This document shows positions 28,650 through 58,916 of a stretch of DNA of 60,030 bases, piece after piece. A model generated the notes under the pieces. That model saw nothing but the letters and a program-made list of their open reading frames with translations, searched no databases and was not told where the DNA came from. Positions within the stretch are counted from its first letter, which is position 1, and each line of letters begins with the position of its first letter. Position numbers and translations under genes: made by a program. This DNA comes from Clostridia bacterium. Its GTDB lineage: Bacteria; Bacillota; Clostridia; Oscillospirales; Acutalibacteraceae. The stretch covers positions 1 to 60,030 of the forward strand of contig JAFQMC010000036.1 in NCBI GenBank assembly GCA_017421045.1, read 5' to 3'.

Positions 28650-28888
28650 TGAAAAAGCCATTGCTTGCTTTGATTCGTTTTTATCAGAAATATATCTCCC
28701 CTCATACACCTCCGAGTTGTAAGTATTACCCCACTTGCTCTCAGTACGGATATGAGGCAATAGAGCGATTCGGTGCAGTAAAAGGCACAGCTCTGGCAAT
28801 ATGGAGATTCCTGCGGTGCAACCCCTTCTCAAAGGGTGGATTCGACCCCATACCGCAAAAGAAACAAAAGACCCGAAAGAAAGGTTAA
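28649..28888 (+). CDS. yidD: Membrane protein insertion efficiency factor YidD
   Basis: The 79-residue protein has the family core [20 protein letters not shown] and CSQYGYEAI with three conserved Cys. It is thought to assist YidC-dependent insertion at the inner face of the membrane. I prefer ATG 28649 (seven nt after GGAGG, overlapping the rnpA stop as TGATG) over the adjacent GTG. Confidence 0.93.
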
Positions 28889-28892
28889 GCTT

Positions 28893-29804
28893 ATGGAAAT
28901 TATCGGAAGCATTTTCGGTTATGTATTGTGGATTGCATATCAGCTTGTTCACAACTACGGACTTGCTATCTTAATCTTCACGATTATTGCGAAGCTCATC
29001 TTGTTCCCTTCTTCTATCAAACAGCAGAAGACTATGGCAGGTAATGCACGTCTTCAAGCAAAACAGGCAGAGCTTCGGGAAAAATACGGCAACAACAGAG
29101 AAAAGCTTAACGAAGAAACCCAGAAGCTCTTTGAAAAGGAAGGCGTCAGCCCTTACAGTGGCTGTCTCAGCACAATTCTCCCTATGGTTATTATGATCGG
29201 AGTTTTCTATGCTGTTGCTTATCCTCTGACAAATACGCTTCATTTGGACAAATCAATGGTAGAAGAGGCAAAGAACGTCCTCGTCTCCATTCCCGGACTG
29301 AATATCTCCGCATCTGCAATGTATGGCGGACAGATTGATATACTCAGATATTTCAACTCTTTTGAGTGTATTCAGGCTTGTTTCGAAGGCGCAAAGCTTT
29401 CTATTCCCGAAATAAGCGCATTCTGTTCATCCTTCAACTTCACAGGACTCAATCTCCTTGAGACTCCTTCTCAGTTGGGATTCTCCTGGTATCTTCTGAT
29501 TCCTTTCCTGTGTTTTGCTACTTCTGTAGCATCTCAGCTTGTTATGCAGAAATTAAACGGCTCCGGTGGTGCACAGCAGGGTTGTATGAAGGCTATGATT
29601 TTTGCTCTTCCCCTGTTCTCTGCTTACATCGCATACACTGTTCCCGCAGCTGTAGGTTTTTACTGGATTTGTTCCACCGTACTGGGTTTTGTGCAGTCGG
29701 TAGTTATGTTCAAGTATTTCGGACCGGCTATGATGGTTGCACGTTCAGAGGCAGCCAGAGTTGCATTGCTTGAAAAGCAGGAAGCTTCTGTAAAGCATCT
29801 TTAA
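28893..29804 (+). CDS. yidC: YidC/Oxa1/SpoIIIJ membrane insertase
   Basis: The 303-residue Gram-positive-type insertase has about five membrane helices. The hydrophilic-groove helix reads GLAILIFTIIAKLILFP, with Lys where B. subtilis SpoIIIJ has its essential Arg. An amphipathic hairpin (LREKYGNNREKLNEETQ) and an extracellular insert between helices 2 and 3 are visible. There is no clear lipobox at the start, unlike Bacillus. Start: ATG at 28893, preceded by AAAGG. A second Oxa1 domain occurs in the fusion at 52111-54252. Confidence 0.92.
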   Translation: MEIIGSIFGYVLWIAYQLVHNYGLAILIFTIIAKLILFPSSIKQQKTMAGNARLQAKQAELREKYGNNREKLNEETQKLFEKEGVSPYSGCLSTILPMVIMIGVFYAVAYPLTNTLHLDKSMVEEAKNVLVSIPGLNISASAMYGGQIDILRYFNSFECIQACFEGAKLSIPEISAFCSSFNFTGLNLLETPSQLGFSWYLLIPFLCFATSVASQLVMQKLNGSGGAQQGCMKAMIFALPLFSAYIAYTVPAAVGFYWICSTVLGFVQSVVMFKYFGPAMMVARSEAARVALLEKQEASVKHL

Positions 29805-49941: not shown

Positions 49942-50478
49942 TTATTTCAGAAATTTCTCTTTGATTTTCGTCTTTGAGAGCAGGGCAACAAGCAGTGTGC
50001 CTGCAACGATTCCTGCACAGCCTTGGATGGTATTGGGCAGGACGGATGCCGCAGCGCCAAGACCGTATTGGAGTAGCACTGCCTCGTAGCAGAAGTAGCC
50101 GAGAACCATAACACACTCGGCGCACACCCCTGCAAGAGCGGTGAACACAAGGGACAGCGCATACTTCTTCTCGCAAAGATTTTTGAAAAGATAAAGCACA
50201 AGCCAGGTCACAACCGCCATCAGAGCTTTTATTATGAAGGTGGCAGGAGCATACTGAACATAGCCTGCAAATATATCGGCAAGAGCCGAGCCGATGCCTG
50301 CGGCGAGCGTACCGTATACAGGTCCCATTAACCAGGCGGAGAGGATGACTACGGCGTCTCCCATATTGAGGAAGCCTCCTGTGGGAGTGGGAATCTGTAT
50401 GGCAATGGTTGCAACACAGCACAGTGCGGCGAGCAACGCCGAGGTTACGATTTTCAGCAGATGAGTTGAGGTTTTCAT
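49942..50478 (-). CDS. ECF transporter substrate-binding (S) component
   Basis: The 178-residue membrane protein has about six helices and the family segments TPTGGFLNMGDAVVILSAW and GPVYGTLAAGIGSALADIF. These place it in the ECF-type riboflavin-transporter-like S group, which includes proteins for flavins, pyridoxine and other vitamins. The exact vitamin cannot be read, and there is no riboswitch in the short leader. The A, A' and T subunits are not in the window. It has its own good promoter at 50514-50542. Confidence 0.85.
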   Translation of the reverse strand: MKTSTHLLKIVTSALLAALCCVATIAIQIPTPTGGFLNMGDAVVILSAWLMGPVYGTLAAGIGSALADIFAGYVQYAPATFIIKALMAVVTWLVLYLFKNLCEKKYALSLVFTALAGVCAECVMVLGYFCYEAVLLQYGLGAAASVLPNTIQGCAGIVAGTLLVALLSKTKIKEKFLK

Positions 50479-50590: not shown

Positions 50591-51481
50591 TTATACGTCG
50601 TAGGTTTTGTCCAGTGCTTTCAGCTCGTTGTAGGTGTCGATTTCGATGATGTCGTCGAAGGTGCACTCGCGGACGTGGATCTTGTATTCATCCTTGAAAT
50701 ACTCCAGAGCAACCTGATCCCAGTATCTCTCCTTACCGCCGGGAGACTGGTAAACCTGCTTGATGTGGCCCACCATCTTTGCGCCGTCGTTTTCATCCCA
50801 GTAGGAGATGCCGAACATATGGTGGCAGTTTGTACCGCCTACAAGAAGCTTTTTGATAATACCGGTGTCAGTAGTCTCAAAGCACCAGTCGTCGGTTTTC
50901 TTTACGGGCACACCCAGGTAGTTGGTGTGGTACTGATACTTGGTGATGATTCCGGGATTGTAGAGCAGCAGGTCTGCTTCGAGCACGTAGGCGTTCTTCA
51001 GCAGATAGCTTGCACATACAGCAGAGGAGATGTTGTTAGCCTCGTTGTACATGGGATTCTCGATAAACTTAATCATGGGATAATCATACAGAAGCTGGTC
51101 AAACTGCTCTGCAAGGTATCCTCTGACAATGTAAATCTCGTTGATACCTGCGGCGAGAACCGCATCAATCAGAGAGGTGATGATGCGCTTGCCGTTGACG
51201 CGGATAAGAGGCTTGGGGGTGTTGAGGGTTACGGGCACCATACGTGAGCCGAAGCCTGCAGCGATGAAGATGGCACGCTTAACTCTGTAGGGTTCCAGTG
51301 CATCAAGACCCTTGGCGGTGATGATACCTTCCTCAAGATATCCCAGGTTGGTGAGCTCTGCGATGCATTTGTTGGCCGTGCCAACAGACATTTTTGTAGA
51401 GGCAGCAATCTCGCGCTGAGTGCGAGAGGTTTTCTTGTCGGAAAGATATACCAGTACATCGAATTGTTTTTTAGTAATCAT
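50591..51481 (-). CDS. Winged-HTH fused to LicC-type CTP:phosphocholine cytidylyltransferase
   Basis: Residues 1-65 of this 296-residue protein are a winged helix (TQREIAASTKMSVGTANKCIAEL). Residues 68-290 are a nucleotidyltransferase with IFIAAGFGSRMVPVTLNTPKPL, the ENPMYNEANNISS segment, VLEADLLLY and the DxYWDQ-like RYWDQVALEYFK. The pattern resembles LicC, which makes CDP-choline for phosphocholine decoration of surface polymers; another CDP- or UDP-activated group is possible. The N-terminal HTH makes it a candidate self-regulating enzyme. Start: ATG at 51481 after a weak GGTGA. It lies downstream of two tiny membrane-protein genes and near the Oxa1-glycerophosphotransferase fusion. Confidence 0.85.
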   Translation of the reverse strand: MITKKQFDVLVYLSDKKTSRTQREIAASTKMSVGTANKCIAELTNLGYLEEGIITAKGLDALEPYRVKRAIFIAAGFGSRMVPVTLNTPKPLIRVNGKRIITSLIDAVLAAGINEIYIVRGYLAEQFDQLLYDYPMIKFIENPMYNEANNISSAVCASYLLKNAYVLEADLLLYNPGIITKYQYHTNYLGVPVKKTDDWCFETTDTGIIKKLLVGGTNCHHMFGISYWDENDGAKMVGHIKQVYQSPGGKERYWDQVALEYFKDEYKIHVRECTFDDIIEIDTYNELKALDKTYDV

Positions 51482-51610: not shown

Positions 51611-51817
51611 TTACTGATCCTCGCCGAAAGAACCGGTAACGTCTGCCTCGATTTCTTTGTTCTGGTTTTCGTCGATGCCCAGCTTGTCGCTGATCTTCTT
51701 CTTAGCACGGCGGAAGTGAACAGCCAGAACGGTACCGATGGTAACTGCAACGCCTGCAACAGCGGCGAATACCATGGACATACTTGCTGCGTCAATATAA
51801 GCTGTGATAATCTGCAT
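51611..51817 (-). CDS. Small single-span membrane protein (68 aa), function unknown
   Basis: A hydrophobic helix at about 12-33 (SMSMVFAAVAGVAVTIGTVL) is followed by a basic stretch HFRRAKKK and an acidic C-terminal tail, so the C-terminus should face the cytoplasm. Strong GGAGG ribosome site before the ATG. I recognise no family. It lies 48 bp downstream of the 36-aa gene and probably on the same transcript. Confidence 0.75.
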   Translation of the reverse strand: MQIITAYIDAASMSMVFAAVAGVAVTIGTVLAVHFRRAKKKISDKLGIDENQNKEIEADVTGSFGEDQ

Positions 51818-51865: not shown

Positions 51866-51976
51866 TTACGATTTGTTTCTGATACAGGATACTATGATGA
51901 GCACCACAATGGGCGGGATAACTACAATAAATAATAACACAAAAGCTAAAATTAAAATCATAGATAAACTCGCCAT
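51866..51976 (-). CDS. Tiny hydrophobic membrane peptide (36 aa)
   Basis: The reading frame encodes MASLSMILILAFVLLFIVV, then IPPIVVLIIVSCIRNKS. Nearly all of it is one long helix with a Pro-Pro kink and a basic end. The ATG follows GGAGAGAT, and a near-consensus promoter lies 52 bp upstream, so it is the first gene of its transcript. The size and form resemble small regulatory or toxin-like membrane peptides. No antitoxin partner was identified, and I infer no function. Confidence 0.65.
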   Translation of the reverse strand: MASLSMILILAFVLLFIVVIPPIVVLIIVSCIRNKS

Positions 51977-52027: not shown

Positions 52028-52056
52028 ATTATAGAGCAGTATAAGAGAAAAGTCAA
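52028..52056 (-). promoter_or_regulatory. Promoter of the 36-aa / 68-aa gene unit
   Basis: On the minus strand TTGACT (52056-52051) and TATAAT (52033-52028) with 17-bp spacing. Confidence 0.85.
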
Positions 52057-52110: not shown

Positions 52111-54252
52111 TTACTTTTTCTTCTCGGTTTTATTTGTAGTCTTCTCCTGCTGACGCTTCACAATCTGGTTGTAGATGTACTTTGCACCTGCCAGACCGCT
52201 TTCGCCCACGTTGAAGATGTTGCGCTCCAGAGCCTCGGAAATCTGCTTCTCATACTTCTCGGGGTTTGAGAGAAGCTCTGATACAACCTCGGGTACAGTG
52301 TTGAGCTTGTCTGTATCTATGGAGATACCCACCTCATCCTTCCAGGAAATCTCTGTAGGAACAAAGGGGATCTTCTCGTAGTTGGGGTTGAGGACCTTCA
52401 TGGGAGTGTTGATGAACATAGAAGGTTTCTTGGTTGCATAGGAGAACTCGTATGCAATTCCCGACCAGTCAGTGATGATAAGGTCAGATTCCCAGATTGT
52501 GCGGTTGGAAGAGAAGTCCATCTCAATGATGAAGTCCTCGCCGTCACAGCCTTCGTACTTCTTCACGATAGCATCCATCTTTGCAGGGAAACGCTTGATG
52601 TATTCAGGATGAGGACGAAGGATAACCTTGTTGCCCTTGTGCAGAAGTCCTTCCATAAGCTCGTCAAGACAGTATTCGAGGATATTGTCCTCCTGCCATG
52701 AGGGAGCAAGCAGAATCTGCTTCTTGTCTTTTTGCACCTTCTCCATTTCGTCGTACATTTTGCACAGGTTGTCGATAACACCGAAGCCTACAGGCACCAG
52801 AGTTTTCTTCTTCAGGTTATAAAGCTCCTCGGTAGCTTGAATCTCGTTTATCTGATGCTGGCCTACACAGAAGATGGTGTCGAAGTAATCGTACGCACCC
52901 TCACGAACGCACATGGTGGTGCTGGTGGGGCCGTGGAAGGTGTAGATATATTCAATGTCTTTTCTTACATAGGAACGCTTGATGTAGTATTTCTCCAGAT
53001 CGGGAGTTGTCATCAGCACGATGTCTGCATCCATTCTCATCATAAAGGTGATGATTTTCTTGGGTCCGATGTAGTAGGGCTTGATGCGGGGCTCGGTCTC
53101 TGCCTTCTTGAAGATAGCATCGTTGGGGTCGTTGGTTACATAGTGGATGGTGATGCTGGTGTTCTTCAGCAGAGCCTCAATGAAGTTCTCAAAGTATTTG
53201 TAGAAACCGCTCTTCTCGGAGTAGATAACAAGATGCTTGTTTGCAATGGAGAAGAAGCGCTTGTAGTCTTTTTTCTCCCGTTTTGCGTTCTCGTCACGGT
53301 GGAAGAGACCCTTCTTTTTGTCGCCGTCCAGTGCCTCAATAGCGGCAAGCTCACGGCGGCTTTCCTCCAGAGCTTCGTAGTCAACGAACTTCTTGGGAGA
53401 GATGATAGCATTGAGCAGCAGAAGCTGAAGCACAGCGATGATGTTGCTTACAACCCAGTACAGTGCGATACCTGCAGGGACGAAGAAGCCGAGGTACAGG
53501 GAAAGTCCCACGGAGAATGCCATGGTACCCCACTTGTTGCCCTTGCCCTGCTCTGCCTGCAGAACGTTGATTTTGTTCTGGATAAAGCACAAGAACCAGG
53601 AGGAGAAACCTGCAATAATGGGAGCAAGCACGTAAATCCAGTTCTGGGAAATTACCTGGCTGGGAGTTGCCGACAGGTCGAAGCCAAAGAAGTCAAGGTC
53701 GAATGCCTGAGCATTCTTTATGGCAAGAGCGCCCTCCTCGGTAGCGGCAATCTCGGCAAAAGCCTCGGGGTTGTTTTTGATAGCGTAGATGGAGTTGATC
53801 TCTACGGAGTTTGACTCCAGATCAAAGTCCTCGCCGATAACAACCGCCGCGGTCTGGGTGATGTCGTTAATAACGGTGTCGGGAGTTTTGAAAATATATG
53901 TGAAGGGATGATAGATAACAGCCACAACTCCCAGAAGCAAAACAATCTGAATTGCAAGAGGAATAAGGCTTGCAAAAGGATTGTACTTCTGCTCTTTGTA
54001 CATTTTGGACTGTTCCTCGCCTATGCGCTCTTTGTCGCCGTAGAACTTAGCCTTCAGCTTGTTGATGGCGGGCTGAATCTTGACGATTTTGATTGAGTTC
54101 ATATGAACCCAGATGCCCACAGGCAGAATGATAATCTTTGTGATAAGTGTGAAGAGAGAGATTACAAGACCGTAGTCGCTCAGCAGCGAGTGGCAGAACT
54201 GCATGAGAAAACCCAGCGGTGTTGCAATCCAGGAGATGATCATATCGTACAT
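52111..54252 (-). CDS. YidC/Oxa1 insertase domain fused to CDP-glycerol glycerophosphotransferase
   Basis: Residues 1-285 of this 713-residue protein are an Oxa1/YidC core: the groove helix GLVISLFTLITKIIILPVG with Lys at the usual Arg position, an amphipathic hairpin (INKLKAKFYGDKERIGEEQ), an extracellular insert and paired C-terminal helices. After a charged linker, residues 330-690 match the TagB/TagF glycerophosphotransferase family: YTFHGPTSTT, LLAPSWQEDN, VILRPHPEYIKRFP and LIITDWSGIAYEFSY. TagF-like enzymes add glycerol- or ribitol-phosphate to teichoic acids at the inner membrane face. The frame is continuous. A separate normal yidC lies at 28893, so this copy is specialised. Start: ATG after GGAGG. 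Confidence 0.88.
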   Translation of the reverse strand: MYDMIISWIATPLGFLMQFCHSLLSDYGLVISLFTLITKIIILPVGIWVHMNSIKIVKIQPAINKLKAKFYGDKERIGEEQSKMYKEQKYNPFASLIPLAIQIVLLLGVVAVIYHPFTYIFKTPDTVINDITQTAAVVIGEDFDLESNSVEINSIYAIKNNPEAFAEIAATEEGALAIKNAQAFDLDFFGFDLSATPSQVISQNWIYVLAPIIAGFSSWFLCFIQNKINVLQAEQGKGNKWGTMAFSVGLSLYLGFFVPAGIALYWVVSNIIAVLQLLLLNAIISPKKFVDYEALEESRRELAAIEALDGDKKKGLFHRDENAKREKKDYKRFFSIANKHLVIYSEKSGFYKYFENFIEALLKNTSITIHYVTNDPNDAIFKKAETEPRIKPYYIGPKKIITFMMRMDADIVLMTTPDLEKYYIKRSYVRKDIEYIYTFHGPTSTTMCVREGAYDYFDTIFCVGQHQINEIQATEELYNLKKKTLVPVGFGVIDNLCKMYDEMEKVQKDKKQILLAPSWQEDNILEYCLDELMEGLLHKGNKVILRPHPEYIKRFPAKMDAIVKKYEGCDGEDFIIEMDFSSNRTIWESDLIITDWSGIAYEFSYATKKPSMFINTPMKVLNPNYEKIPFVPTEISWKDEVGISIDTDKLNTVPEVVSELLSNPEKYEKQISEALERNIFNVGESGLAGAKYIYNQIVKRQQEKTTNKTEKKK

Positions 54253-54300: not shown

Positions 54301-54329
54301 ATTATATAACTACAGAAAACCCTTGTCAA
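54301..54329 (-). promoter_or_regulatory. Full-consensus promoter of the Oxa1-glycerophosphotransferase fusion
   Basis: On the minus strand TTGACA (54329-54324) and TATAAT (54306-54301), both perfect, 17 bp apart and about 50 bp before the ATG. Strong expression is expected. Confidence 0.9.
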
Positions 54330-54534: not shown

Positions 54535-55779
54535 ATGGACAAGAAATCAAAAATAGCAATTTCCGTCGCCATAGGCGTGCTGACGGCGTTTTTTGTGCTG
54601 GTGCTGGCTCTGGGGCTTAGCTGTACTCCCGAAGAGACCGCAACTCCCGACGAGGTTGTTGCTACACCCGGGCATCAGGAAACCGAGACAACCGTACCGA
54701 GAGCGGAGCAGATTGTGCTCTCCTTTATCGGAGACTGCACAATGGCATCCAATCAGGGCAAGGTGGAGCAGGGAAACTTCATGTGGCACGCACAGCAGAA
54801 GAGTCACGACTACTTCTTCGAGGGTGTGTACGACGTGCTCTCTCAGGATGACGTGACCTTTGCCAACTGCGAGACAGTGCTCTCCGACGGCAACCTGAAG
54901 CAAAAGGTCAAAGACCACAACCCTGCGTTCTGGTTCAAAGCTCCTGCTTCCTATGCAGATATTCTGAAACTCGGCTCCGTAGAGGTGGCGGGTGTTGCCA
55001 ACAACCACACCTACGACTACGGCGAGCAGGGATGCAAAGATACCCTGAAAGCACTGGAGGCCCAGGGAATTCTCGGCGGTGACGATTACGTCCCCGTGTA
55101 CACAGAAGTAAAGGGTACCAAAATCGGTATCGTGTTCTGTTCCCTCTGGGGAAGCTATCAGACCGACGAGATTGAGACCGCCCTCAAAGAAATGGAGAAC
55201 AACTGCGACTACAGTATTGTGTATTTCCACGGCGGTTCAGAGGGTACTCACTATCCCGATAATTACATAATAGATGCCTGCAGATATCTTGCAAATTCAG
55301 GTTTGTGCGACCTGATAGTAGGCGCTCATCCCCATGTGCTTCAGCCCATGGAGATAGTAAACGATGTGCCCATCATGTATTCACTGGGCAACTTCTGCTT
55401 CGGAGGAAACTCCTACCCCGAAAACAAGACGGCGATTTTTCAGGCAACCCTCACCATGCAGGACGGAAAAATTGTCACCGATACATCCTTCATCCCCTGC
55501 TATGTGTACACAGGTCCGCGGAATAACTACCAGCCCATGGTTATAACGGATGCAGATGACAAGGCGGAGATTCTTTCTATGCTCAGCGAGAAGGTTGAAA
55601 AGCGTGCCTCAAAACCCAAAACCACCGCAACAGAAACCACCGCCAAGGAGACCGTAGCAAACACCGAAGCAAAGCCCCCGGTGCCCCAAAGCACAAAGCC
55701 TCCTCAGCAGGATAACACCCCCACCGAGGCTCCTGCCACACAGCCTGCACAGACGGAGGCCGTTGTAGCGACACAGTAG
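54535..55779 (+). CDS. CapA-family membrane-anchored metallophosphoesterase-like protein
   Basis: The 414-residue protein has an N-terminal membrane helix (8-29), an extracellular CapA/PgsA domain (about 60-330) with FIGDCTM, FANCETVL, VANNHTYDYG, YFHGGSEG, VGAHPHVLQPME and YSLGNF, and a Pro/Thr-rich tail. Family members take part in poly-gamma-glutamate export or act on surface polymers. No capB/capC genes are here, so poly-glutamate synthesis is not indicated. It diverges from the glycerophosphotransferase fusion across a 282-bp spacer. Start: ATG after AAGGGGAT. Confidence 0.87.
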   Translation: MDKKSKIAISVAIGVLTAFFVLVLALGLSCTPEETATPDEVVATPGHQETETTVPRAEQIVLSFIGDCTMASNQGKVEQGNFMWHAQQKSHDYFFEGVYDVLSQDDVTFANCETVLSDGNLKQKVKDHNPAFWFKAPASYADILKLGSVEVAGVANNHTYDYGEQGCKDTLKALEAQGILGGDDYVPVYTEVKGTKIGIVFCSLWGSYQTDEIETALKEMENNCDYSIVYFHGGSEGTHYPDNYIIDACRYLANSGLCDLIVGAHPHVLQPMEIVNDVPIMYSLGNFCFGGNSYPENKTAIFQATLTMQDGKIVTDTSFIPCYVYTGPRNNYQPMVITDADDKAEILSMLSEKVEKRASKPKTTATETTAKETVANTEAKPPVPQSTKPPQQDNTPTEAPATQPAQTEAVVATQ

Positions 55780-56939: not shown

Positions 56940-58916
56940 TTATTGATACATTGCCTCTGTGTTGATTGGAGCATTAGCTGCGATTCCTGCGCACCATTTC
57001 TGAATTGCGGTTGCATCCTTAACGTTCAAAGCATCACTGCTCAGAACATTTGCCGCGAAATTGTCCTTGGGTGCAAGAGTTGTAAGTCCTGCTACGGTTT
57101 TCTGAATCAGAGTTGCGTCCTTAACGTTAATGTTGCCGGATGCATCTGCGTCTCCCATAAGAACCATGGTGCCCTGGGCAGGAGCGGAGGCATTGTAGTG
57201 CATTGTGGCGTTGAGGATGGGGTCGTTGCCGTTTCCGATTTCAACATAGCTCCAGAATTTTTCAGAGCCTTCGTAGTATACATCGGTGATGTTATTGCTT
57301 TCATAGAATGCGTAGTAGTCTATGGTCTGAATACCCTCGGGGAAATAAACCTTCTTGAGAGCGGTGCAGGATCTGAAAGCATAGTCATCTATCACCAGAA
57401 CGTTTTCGGGGATAACAAGAGTTTCGATTCTTGAACATCCTGAAAAGGCACGTTCACCTATGGTTGTAAGATTGTCGTTCAAGTTAAGTGTCTTGATGCC
57501 GTCACAGTTGAAAAAGGCATAGTCGTCAATGGTTTTTACAGTAGAAGGGACAGAGAGACTTGTGAGCGCTCCGCAGTCATAAAATGCAGAGTTGCCGATG
57601 GTTTTAAGGCTGTCTCCCCAGGTAATGTTTTTGAGGGCTGTGCAGCTGCTGAATGCGCTGGTTTCTATCTCGGTTACGTTTTTGCCGATGGAGACAGACT
57701 CAAGCTTTGTGCAACCCTCGAAGCCGTAGTAAGGAATAGCCAGCAGGTTCTTTCCTGTTGTGACAGTCACAAGGTTGTCGCAACCTCTGAAGACATAGTC
57801 GTCCATTGTTGTTACGCTGTCGGGGATTGCGACGGTGGTTATTCCTCTGCAGTTGCGGAATGCACCTTCGCCGATAGTAATCACGTTTTTGCCGAGAGTT
57901 AGTTTTGTGATGCCGGTGCACCCGAAGAACGCGTTGTCTCCGATGCCGGTGACAGTGTCGGGCACGGAGATGGTTTTCAGTGCAGTACATCCATAGAAAG
58001 CGCCGTTGTTAATGGTGGTTACCTTTGCACCCCATGTTAAATCGGAGAGACTCTCGCAACCCTCGAAGGCAGAGTTGTCAATGGTTGTTACGCTGTCGCC
58101 TATTTTAACAGATTCGAGGGCTTTGCATCCCTCGAAGCCGTAATATGGAACAGTCTGAAGTCCATCGCCCAGAGTAACATCAATGAGACGGATGCAACCT
58201 CTGAAAGCGTAGTCGTCCATAAATTTTACGCTGTCGGGAAAGTCAAGGGCGCGCAGACCTGTACAGTTGCGGAAGGCTGAGTCGCCGATAGTATCAACCT
58301 TGTTGCCTATAGTGAGCTGAGCCAAGGCACTGCAAGCGAAAAAAGCGTTGTCTCCGATAACGATAACCGTGTTGGGAATTGATACTTTTTTCAGTGATGT
58401 GCACTGATAAAAAGCTCCGTTGTCAATCGCGGTGATGTTTGAGCCCCAGGTGATGTCCGTCAGTGAGCTACAGTCTCCGAAAGCGTAGTTGTCAATCAGA
58501 GTTACACTGTTGCCTATTTCTATGGATTCAAGGCTTTCGCAGCTTTCAAATCCGTAGTAGGGTATCGCAAGGAGTCCGTCGCCAAAGGAAACAGACACAA
58601 GGCTGTCGCAGTCTCTGAACGCATAGTCGCCAATGGTTTTGAGCGAGTCAGGGAGGACAACGGATTTCAGGCTGTCACGGTTGCGGAAGGTAGACGCCTT
58701 GATTTCCGTAACGGGGTATCCGCCCAGAGTCTCAGGAATAACCAGATTACCGCTGACATCTTCGGGGGCTTTGGTGATGATTGCCTGTGAGTTCTGGATG
58801 GTGTAGGTGAGGTTGTCCGCAGAGTATTCCTCTGCAAATACGCTCATCGGCACCACACTGAACAGCGACATCACCATAAGCAGTGAAAGCCCAAGAGATA
58901 AGATTCTTTTTTTCAT
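56940..58916 (-). CDS. Secreted BspA-type leucine-rich-repeat protein with dockerin
   Basis: The 658-residue protein has a signal peptide (1-28) and about 21 LRR_5 (BspA/TpLRR) units of 23 residues of the form FxxCxxLxxIxIGxxVxxIxxxA. The units form a higher-order repeat of six LRRs (138 residues), marked by PYYGFE at residues 119, 257 and 395. The C-terminal dockerin has a good first calcium loop (GDADASGNINVKDATLIQK) and a degenerate second one (NVLSSDALNVKDATAIQK). BspA-type LRRs bind proteins or surfaces; the dockerin suggests attachment to a scaffoldin. Start: ATG after AAGGAGG, with a TTGACA/TATAAT promoter upstream. Confidence 0.9.
   Translation of the reverse strand: MKKRILSLGLSLLMVMSLFSVVPMSVFAEEYSADNLTYTIQNSQAIITKAPEDVSGNLVIPETLGGYPVTEIKASTFRNRDSLKSVVLPDSLKTIGDYAFRDCDSLVSVSFGDGLLAIPYYGFESCESLESIEIGNSVTLIDNYAFGDCSSLTDITWGSNITAIDNGAFYQCTSLKKVSIPNTVIVIGDNAFFACSALAQLTIGNKVDTIGDSAFRNCTGLRALDFPDSVKFMDDYAFRGCIRLIDVTLGDGLQTVPYYGFEGCKALESVKIGDSVTTIDNSAFEGCESLSDLTWGAKVTTINNGAFYGCTALKTISVPDTVTGIGDNAFFGCTGITKLTLGKNVITIGEGAFRNCRGITTVAIPDSVTTMDDYVFRGCDNLVTVTTGKNLLAIPYYGFEGCTKLESVSIGKNVTEIETSAFSSCTALKNITWGDSLKTIGNSAFYDCGALTSLSVPSTVKTIDDYAFFNCDGIKTLNLNDNLTTIGERAFSGCSRIETLVIPENVLVIDDYAFRSCTALKKVYFPEGIQTIDYYAFYESNNITDVYYEGSEKFWSYVEIGNGNDPILNATMHYNASAPAQGTMVLMGDADASGNINVKDATLIQKTVAGLTTLAPKDNFAANVLSSDALNVKDATAIQKWCAGIAANAPINTEAMYQ

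Follow-up and report, generated by a model that had tools for sequence, protein, structure and literature searches.

The window analysed here is a 60,030-nucleotide stretch of a Clostridia bacterium draft genome (assembly GCA_017421045.1, contig JAFQMC010000036.1). On its reverse strand, at 52111–54252, lies a YidC–glycerophosphotransferase (YidC-GPT) fusion gene, a single open reading frame (ORF) of 713 residues that starts with ATG and contains no internal stop. Residues 27–281 (53410–54174, reverse strand) match the Oxa1/YidC family (Pfam 60KD_IMP, PF02096; E 9.8e-30, 104.1 bits, cut-off 35), and the fusion also exceeds the cut-off of the NCBIfam model for the YidC C-terminal domain (TIGR03592; 96.7 bits, cut-off 84.3). 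Residues 338–613 (52414–53241, reverse strand) form a TagF-like domain (Pfam Glyphos_transf, PF04464; E 1.8e-11, 44.1 bits, cut-off 22.1). The original prediction, made from the DNA letters alone, had described these two domains in one uninterrupted chain and a separate, normal yidC in the same window; domain searches bear out all of this, the ordinary YidC being a separate ORF at 28836–29804 on the forward strand. The genome, which is 68% complete, holds two PF02096 and two PF04464 matches, the fusion being counted in both. Its other PF04464 protein is on another contig and matches Cps3D alone among solved structures (E 8e-4).

We refer to four modules: Y (YidC-like), G (TagF-like GT-B transferase), T (a one-helix protein with an AYIDP motif) and S (LtaS/GacH-like AlkP transferase). 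The fusion system, with Y joined to G, is called A-type, and a sister system described below, with T joined to G and Y to S, is called B-type. Within G, residues H440, R546–P549 (the RPHP motif), D595 and S597 are invariant in 27 A-type proteins, 13 B-type proteins and the nearest standalone relative (L068); they are of catalytic type, with roles assumed from their TagF equivalents. Hydropathy peaks of the Y half lie at residues 19–37/29–47, 95–113, 206–224 and 250–268/262–280. Its groove residue, K39 (54136–54138), aligns without gaps with residue 366 of YidC chain 4utq, which is R366 of E. coli YidC (PMC8920935).

The survey of this architecture that had been proposed with the original prediction found the one-frame fusion at 28 loci, down to about 41% identity to the window, with internal stops in 0 of 28 proteins. 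This set leaves out a contig-cut locus (L057) and the TagF-only L068, counts L049 although its 3′ end is cut, and includes two loci that share one genome (L042 and L043). Full or near-full matches were found in 10 of 300 family genomes, the window's own included; three of these (G055, G180 and G253) matched in pieces and read as one frame at the locus, and the stops counted in the matches of G045, G055 and G499 are frame ends. The class sample gave matches in 5 of 391 genomes, again with the window's own, and the phylum sample in 3 of 398, namely the window's own, one fusion already counted, and G1044, which has the TagF-like half alone. A scan of named genomes gave 14 loci. Six of them, from Ruminococcus and Oscillospiraceae metagenome-assembled genomes (MAGs), are 80–89% identical to the window, and eight are 41–47% identical, from MAGs labelled Treponema, Peptococcaceae, Coriobacteriales, Clostridiales, Clostridia or Clostridiaceae; the contig-cut L057 is one of these eight. 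None of 31 matching plasmid records had one place covering 80% of the fusion. An incomplete draft could in principle hold an assembly or frame artefact of a metagenome bin, but the same stop-free frame recurs in 28 independent loci, six of them close relatives of the window, and this rules the artefact out for practical purposes. The fusion is real, and some bacteria of the gut and related ones carry it.

In a tree with 29 ordinary YidC proteins, the Y halves of all 28 fusions form one clade (support 100/100). The G halves of 27 fusions and L068 likewise form one clade (100/100) against 11 other TagF-like proteins, 10 of which were later shown to be part of the sister system; L068, on a long branch, may lie inside or outside the fusions. 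The groove residue is Lys in 27 fusions and Arg in one, compared with 24 Arg, 4 Lys and 1 Asn in the 29 ordinary YidC proteins. Six core YidC positions (Y27, F34, Q102, G261, W266 and N270) are invariant in 28 of 28 fusions. Four further residues (N52, V57, P61 and Y90) are equally invariant there and variable in ordinary YidC; for these we infer a specific contact of the cytoplasmic side.

Directly downstream of the fusion, at 51611–51817 on the reverse strand, a 68-residue one-helix membrane protein of the AYIDA/AYIDP type is encoded behind a GGAGG. Its sequence begins MQIITAYIDAAS. The members of this family, our module T, share an invariant Y.D motif and, near where the conserved part starts, an invariant acidic residue; they have one hydrophobic stretch and a basic tail. 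When six-frame translations were searched with a profile that includes 12 of these same small proteins, T relatives turned up no farther than 5 kb from the fusion in 23 of 28 loci; none was found in L040, L042, L049 (contig end), L051 and L053. Across the 300 family genomes, a second profile (A3) matched at E<1e-10 in 10/10 fusion genomes and 0/290 others (Fisher 7e-19); its rows include proteins of seven of the ten matched genomes, so that the independent finds are G055, G203 and G268. Six non-fusion genomes gave weak matches (6.5e-6 to 8.3e-4; Fisher 6e-15 when these are counted), at least two of which (G001 and G158) are YIDPG-TagF proteins of the sister system. None of four T proteins scanned had a Pfam family above cut-off. 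In PHROGs, the T protein of the window had no match, and that of L066 matched two families of unknown function alone (best E 0.002). T is not always a free protein beside the fusion: it makes up the N-terminus of S in 6 of the 28 fusion loci, and in G268 it lies 22 bases behind S and not beside the fusion. Two tiny membrane proteins had been guessed to be partners of the fusion. The guess is strongly supported for T and falls for the second, a 36-residue hydrophobic frame at 51866–51976 (reverse strand), which was not seen in five close relatives inspected and is probably outside the system.

A larger partner, absent from the original prediction, is S, which has a hydrophobic N-terminal part followed by an AlkP/sulfatase domain and is encoded in the same cluster in 13 of 28 fusion loci. 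Searched genome-wide at E<1e-50, S occurs in 12 of the 14 fusion genomes and in none of the 37 others (Fisher 5.7e-10); the profile rows come from 8 of the 12 matched genomes, leaving G074, G172, G096 and G268 as independent finds, and the 37 comparison genomes were hand-picked from the family sample, with two of the same genus among them. The best matches of the S profile among solved structures are lipoteichoic acid synthases (2w5r, E 3e-8). PF00884 is above cut-off in the S proteins of L055, L052 and L064 and below it in that of L044 (14.3 against 25). T162 is nearly invariant, DHG is invariant in 13 proteins and H..G.H is conserved; we take these to be residues of the kind used by AlkP transferases, with the Thr presumably the nucleophile.

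Weak partial S matches in 5 of the 37 non-fusion genomes revealed a sister system, likewise missing from the original prediction, in which the same modules are joined differently. Its first protein (about 410–480 residues) is a YIDPGTGS helix followed by a TagF-like domain (T-G); two of five were scanned and both exceed the PF04464 cut-off. The next gene encodes a protein of 905–943 residues with YidC and sulfatase domains (Y-S). All five Y-S proteins match PF02096 (78–84 bits, cut-off 35) and four of five exceed the sulfatase cut-off, the fifth (L117) scoring 24.9 against 25; against the NCBIfam YidC profile, three score 78–84, just below the cut-off of 84.3. T-G and then Y-S lie side by side in 13 of 13 loci examined, with a one-base overlap of their genes (TAATG) in L115. 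Five of these loci came from the weak S matches and eight were chosen by a match to G alone (TagF-only), of which the family sample holds at least 14; one (G203:C36) is outside the 13 loci and one (L127) is contig-cut. In L130 the AYIDPG motif was recognised by eye after the pattern search had missed it. No sister system was found at E≤1e-60 in 178 phylum genomes, a sample without a positive control. In L129 (6402–12001) and L130 (2561–9509), two YidC-AlkP proteins lie beside one T-TagF protein, perhaps for two outer acceptors.

The sister Y modules form a clade of their own (15 rows, 100/100). A common clade of fusion and sister Y modules is neither shown nor rejected (approximately unbiased test, p-AU 0.267); independent recruitment of YidC by the two systems was considered and, with the two separate clades and this value for their joint grouping, is not shown. 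Thus, one lineage has Y-G with T or T-S, and the other has T-G with Y-S. By the usual logic of domain fusion, modules shuffled in this way between two systems act together, and the pattern points to one functional complex of all four.

Two readings of the Y half have to be weighed against this arrangement. In the first, Y no longer transports anything and serves as a scaffold that keeps the TagF-like enzyme with its partners at the membrane, near the acceptor; decoration would then be confined to the cytoplasmic side, and the AlkP protein would have some other task. All 15 sister proteins have Asn at the groove position, which fits a lost activity, and the region before the fusion in L065 holds genes that read like those of a polysaccharide ATP-binding cassette (ABC) exporter, so that a finished polymer might be exported. 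Against this stand the core YidC positions kept in every fusion and the different partners of Y, which is joined to G in the A-type and to S in the B-type system, an arrangement that fits a shared activity better; anchoring would also need one helix only. We regard a pure scaffold as possible, if doubtful.

In the second reading, Y is a dedicated insertase for the AYIDP protein, with the TagF-like half coupled to that assembly step. T appears to be a small N-out, C-in, single-span protein like classic YidC clients; its shortness, single hydrophobic stretch, basic tail and invariant acidic residue, its presence in every fusion genome of the family sample and the retention of K39 in the fusions are all in keeping with this. 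Yet a large AlkP protein has T at its N-terminus in six fusion loci, and the sister system has T fused to G. Being joined to S or G, T acts like a module rather than a simple client, and the window genome also has an ordinary YidC. A pairing of the AYIDP Asp with K39 was considered as well and is weakened by the Asn at the groove position of the sister system; a charge-based groove mechanism cannot be general. In addition, the positive groove residue is reported to act by its hydrophilicity and not by charge pairing with clients (PMC8920935). We thus consider a dedicated insertase unlikely.

The genes around both systems bear on the substrate. Behind T in the window, at 50591–51481 on the reverse strand, a 296-residue cytidylyltransferase with an N-terminal winged helix is encoded (Pfam NTP_transferase 37 bits, cut-off 21.2; MarR_2 29.8 bits, cut-off 27). 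We take it to be LicC-like from its place in the clusters; the names LicA, LicB, LicC and PntC used here are likewise assumed from context, no NCBIfam equivalog being above cut-off. Of the 28 fusion loci, 17 have a nucleotidyltransferase (NTP transferase) of the LicC/PntC kind no more than 12 kb away, at E<1e-50 with a profile built partly from these loci. NTP transferase matches also occur in 10 of 13 sister loci. LicC is weak as a marker of the system by itself (7/14 fusion genomes, 8/37 others). The loci L118, L125, L126 and L128 have a choline kinase (Pfam above cut-off) together with an NTP transferase. The first three also have a confirmed EamA transporter, and their licC-licA-licB-like genes adjoin those for T-G and Y-S; L128 has an EamA look-alike, judged by sequence reading only. 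NTP transferase and choline kinase are joined in one protein in three fusion loci (L038, L052 and L056) and also in L117 and L123.

Other loci carry phosphonate-type genes. PepM is present in two of 28 fusion loci (L040 and L065), each also with a decarboxylase-type thiamine pyrophosphate (TPP) enzyme in the cluster. Proteins resembling 2-aminoethylphosphonate (AEP) transaminase occur in L051 and L041, that of L051 alone passing the family cut-off. The standalone L068 lies directly behind genes for PepM, a TPP enzyme, an NTP transferase and AEP transaminase, and in the sister locus L115 genes for an NTP-PepM protein, an iron-type alcohol dehydrogenase (Fe-ADH) and Ppd precede T-G and Y-S, PepM and Ppd being above cut-off. 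Phosphoenolpyruvate (PEP) mutase exceeds its Pfam cut-off in 7 of 14 fusion genomes. In the 300-genome sample its equivalog is found in 4/10 fusion and 17/290 other genomes (p 0.0029), so most fusion genomes of that sample are without PEP mutase. Together, the neighbouring genes suggest CMP-activated phosphocholine or phosphonate donors.

This departs from the polyol-phosphate chemistry of the original prediction, in which the protein would be an ordinary teichoic-acid-type glycerophosphotransferase using cytidine diphosphate (CDP)-glycerol, with YidC as an incidental anchor. The PF04464 match speaks for such an enzyme, as do TagD (TIGR01518) above cut-off in two fusion genomes (G045 and G172) and weaker matches to this cytidylyltransferase profile in eight more of the 14 (best 117 bits, cut-off 165.4), some of which fall inside PepM-type proteins; the remaining four genomes have no match. 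Because TagD exceeds its cut-off in just 2 of 14 fusion genomes, a figure counted in fusion genomes alone, CDP-glycerol is probably not the donor. Genes for donors of another chemistry are found close to the fusion, next to the sister system and directly in front of L068, and we consider the teichoic-acid explanation improbable.

The winged helix on the LicC-like protein of the window recurs on those of L038, L052, L117 and L123 and is possibly regulatory. Behind the window's LicC gene, at 49942–50478 on the reverse strand, lies one for an energy-coupling factor (ECF) transporter S component, which could feed an alcohol or vitamin to the pathway; a similar protein is encoded near LicC in five close relatives. 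Just before the LicC-like gene, L041 (5410–5970) and L044 (12987–13550) share a cysteine-rich protein.

We propose, tentatively and at somewhat below an even chance, that a membrane machine of four modules, with the fusion as its inner half, places phosphocholine or phosphonate groups on a surface glycan. First, enzymes of the LicC/LicA/LicB or PepM/Ppd/PntC type, whose genes are linked to the system, would make a CMP-activated head group. Second, G would move the head group on the cytoplasmic side from this donor to a membrane acceptor, for example a lipid. Third, and least certain of all, the polar groove of Y, open to the cytoplasm and the bilayer, may hold the loaded acceptor and let its polar head cross. 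Fourth, extracytoplasmic S, where present, would shift the head group from lipid to surface polymer, as its family suggests. Fifth, T might dock G and S to Y, in line with the domain swaps. Co-occurrence, linkage, domain swaps and conserved residues are direct observations, and the second to fifth steps are what we infer beyond them.

For the Y half, the original prediction offered three roles (anchor, presenter of a lipid-linked acceptor, or insertase for a small partner); we favour one in moving or holding the head-group lipid. The more specific idea of a YidC-family protein as head-group translocator, passing its load from an inner TagF-like loader through the groove to an outer AlkP-type transferase in two domain arrangements, is rather doubtful; if it holds, we know of no earlier bacterial relative of YidC with a physiological role in moving lipids. 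The assignment of loading to G, passage to Y, outside transfer to S and holding to T is modelled on the precedents of C. difficile CD0242/CD0244, CpgD, GacH and YidC scrambling. E. coli YidC scrambles phospholipids in liposomes, and nine simulated Oxa1-family proteins scrambled lipids in silico (PMC10491306). CpgD makes CDP-glycerate for a lipid head group, and the family of its cytidylyltransferase domain includes phosphocholine-using enzymes (PMC12275187).

Several observations weigh against this proposal. No S match at E≤1e-10 was found in the window genome (G000, 68% complete) or in G530, which is 99% complete, and S was not found in the available locus DNA of 15 of 28 fusion loci. The available DNA of 11 of 28 fusion loci likewise showed no strong NTP transferase. 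TagD was counted in fusion genomes only, eight more of which have weaker matches to its profile. The groove residue of the sister system is Asn throughout, and YidC scrambling in vitro may have no physiological role. Finally, a search of solved structures gave no relevant match for the G profile or for a single G half, so G is without a sequence match to any solved TagF.

In the window, a promoter-like site, TTGACA-17-TATAAT (12/12), lies about 50 bases upstream of the fusion start (54301–54329, reverse strand). A second, TTGACT-17-TATAAT (11/12; 52028–52056, reverse strand), is situated between the fusion and the small proteins, upstream of the latter and LicC, and could allow T and LicC to be expressed independently of the fusion. 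Both sites are no more than matches to the consensus, and 11 such sites were found against 6.9 in shuffles. Diverging from the fusion, at 54535–55779 on the forward strand, is a gene for a capsule-type PGA_cap protein, a family that occupies this place in 6 of the 7 closest loci, the window being one of the six. In 6 of the 28 loci (L038, L041, L043, L044, L064 and L066), a gene resembling that of signal peptidase I, named from its sequence, is found no more than 3 kb from the fusion. Farther away, 56940–58916 (reverse strand) encodes a repeat-rich secreted protein, the end of which we take to resemble a dockerin.

A full-text literature search found no description of a YidC/TagF-like architecture, and nothing joining licB, YidC and choline kinase, and broader queries showed no such architecture in titles or opening lines of abstracts; its coverage lacks most subscription papers, making this weak evidence of absence. 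The main text of a paper on phosphonate activation (PMC6697681) has no occurrence of YidC, sulfatase or glycerophosphotransferase. If the proposal is true, the Oxa1/YidC superfamily gains a role beyond protein insertion, the relevance of insertase scrambling in living cells becomes directly testable, and a LicD-free route for phosphocholine and phosphonates onto bacterial surfaces is suggested. Whatever the mechanism, firm predictions of partners follow from the four-module swap for four protein families, among them the AYIDP proteins, for which Pfam offered no match above cut-off in the four tested.

The system resembles several known ones in part. As in LicD-type phosphocholine decoration, which involves LicA, LicB and LicC, some loci have choline kinase-like, EamA transporter and cytidylyltransferase genes, but the transferase here is TagF-like and tied to YidC-like and AlkP modules, and would take the place of LicD. 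LicD-like proteins near PntC are mentioned in PMC6697681. With TagF and the TagF-like capsule polymerases, G shares the PF04464 match and the conserved His, RPHP and D.S motifs; it differs in the kind of donor genes, in its fusion to YidC and in lacking a sequence match to solved TagF. CD0242 and CD0244 of the C. difficile type A flagellin glycan likewise are a LicC-like nucleotidyltransferase and a TagF-like transferase, proposed to make and use CDP-threonine (PMC10714395). Their acceptor is a flagellin sugar, and the part of that source available names no YidC, T or AlkP module (PMC10714395).

On the outer side, group A Streptococcus has the glycerol-phosphate transferase GacH, which draws on phosphatidylglycerol in decorating a wall polysaccharide (PMC12282279). 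Like GacH and LtaS, S is an AlkP-superfamily protein with a hydrophobic N-terminal part; unlike them, it carries or accompanies T, and the sister S carries a YidC-like domain. Three-component glycosylation employs GtrA-type flippases. It has a loader, a flippase and an outer transferase (PMC7389260), the same logic of loading, crossing and transfer as proposed here, except that phospho- or phosphono-head groups would take the place of sugars and a YidC-like module that of the flippase. Finally, the fusion shares with the YidC/Oxa1 insertases the Pfam and NCBIfam matches above cut-off and the groove residue, whereas its Y half forms a separate clade and is joined to an enzyme and that enzyme's operon.

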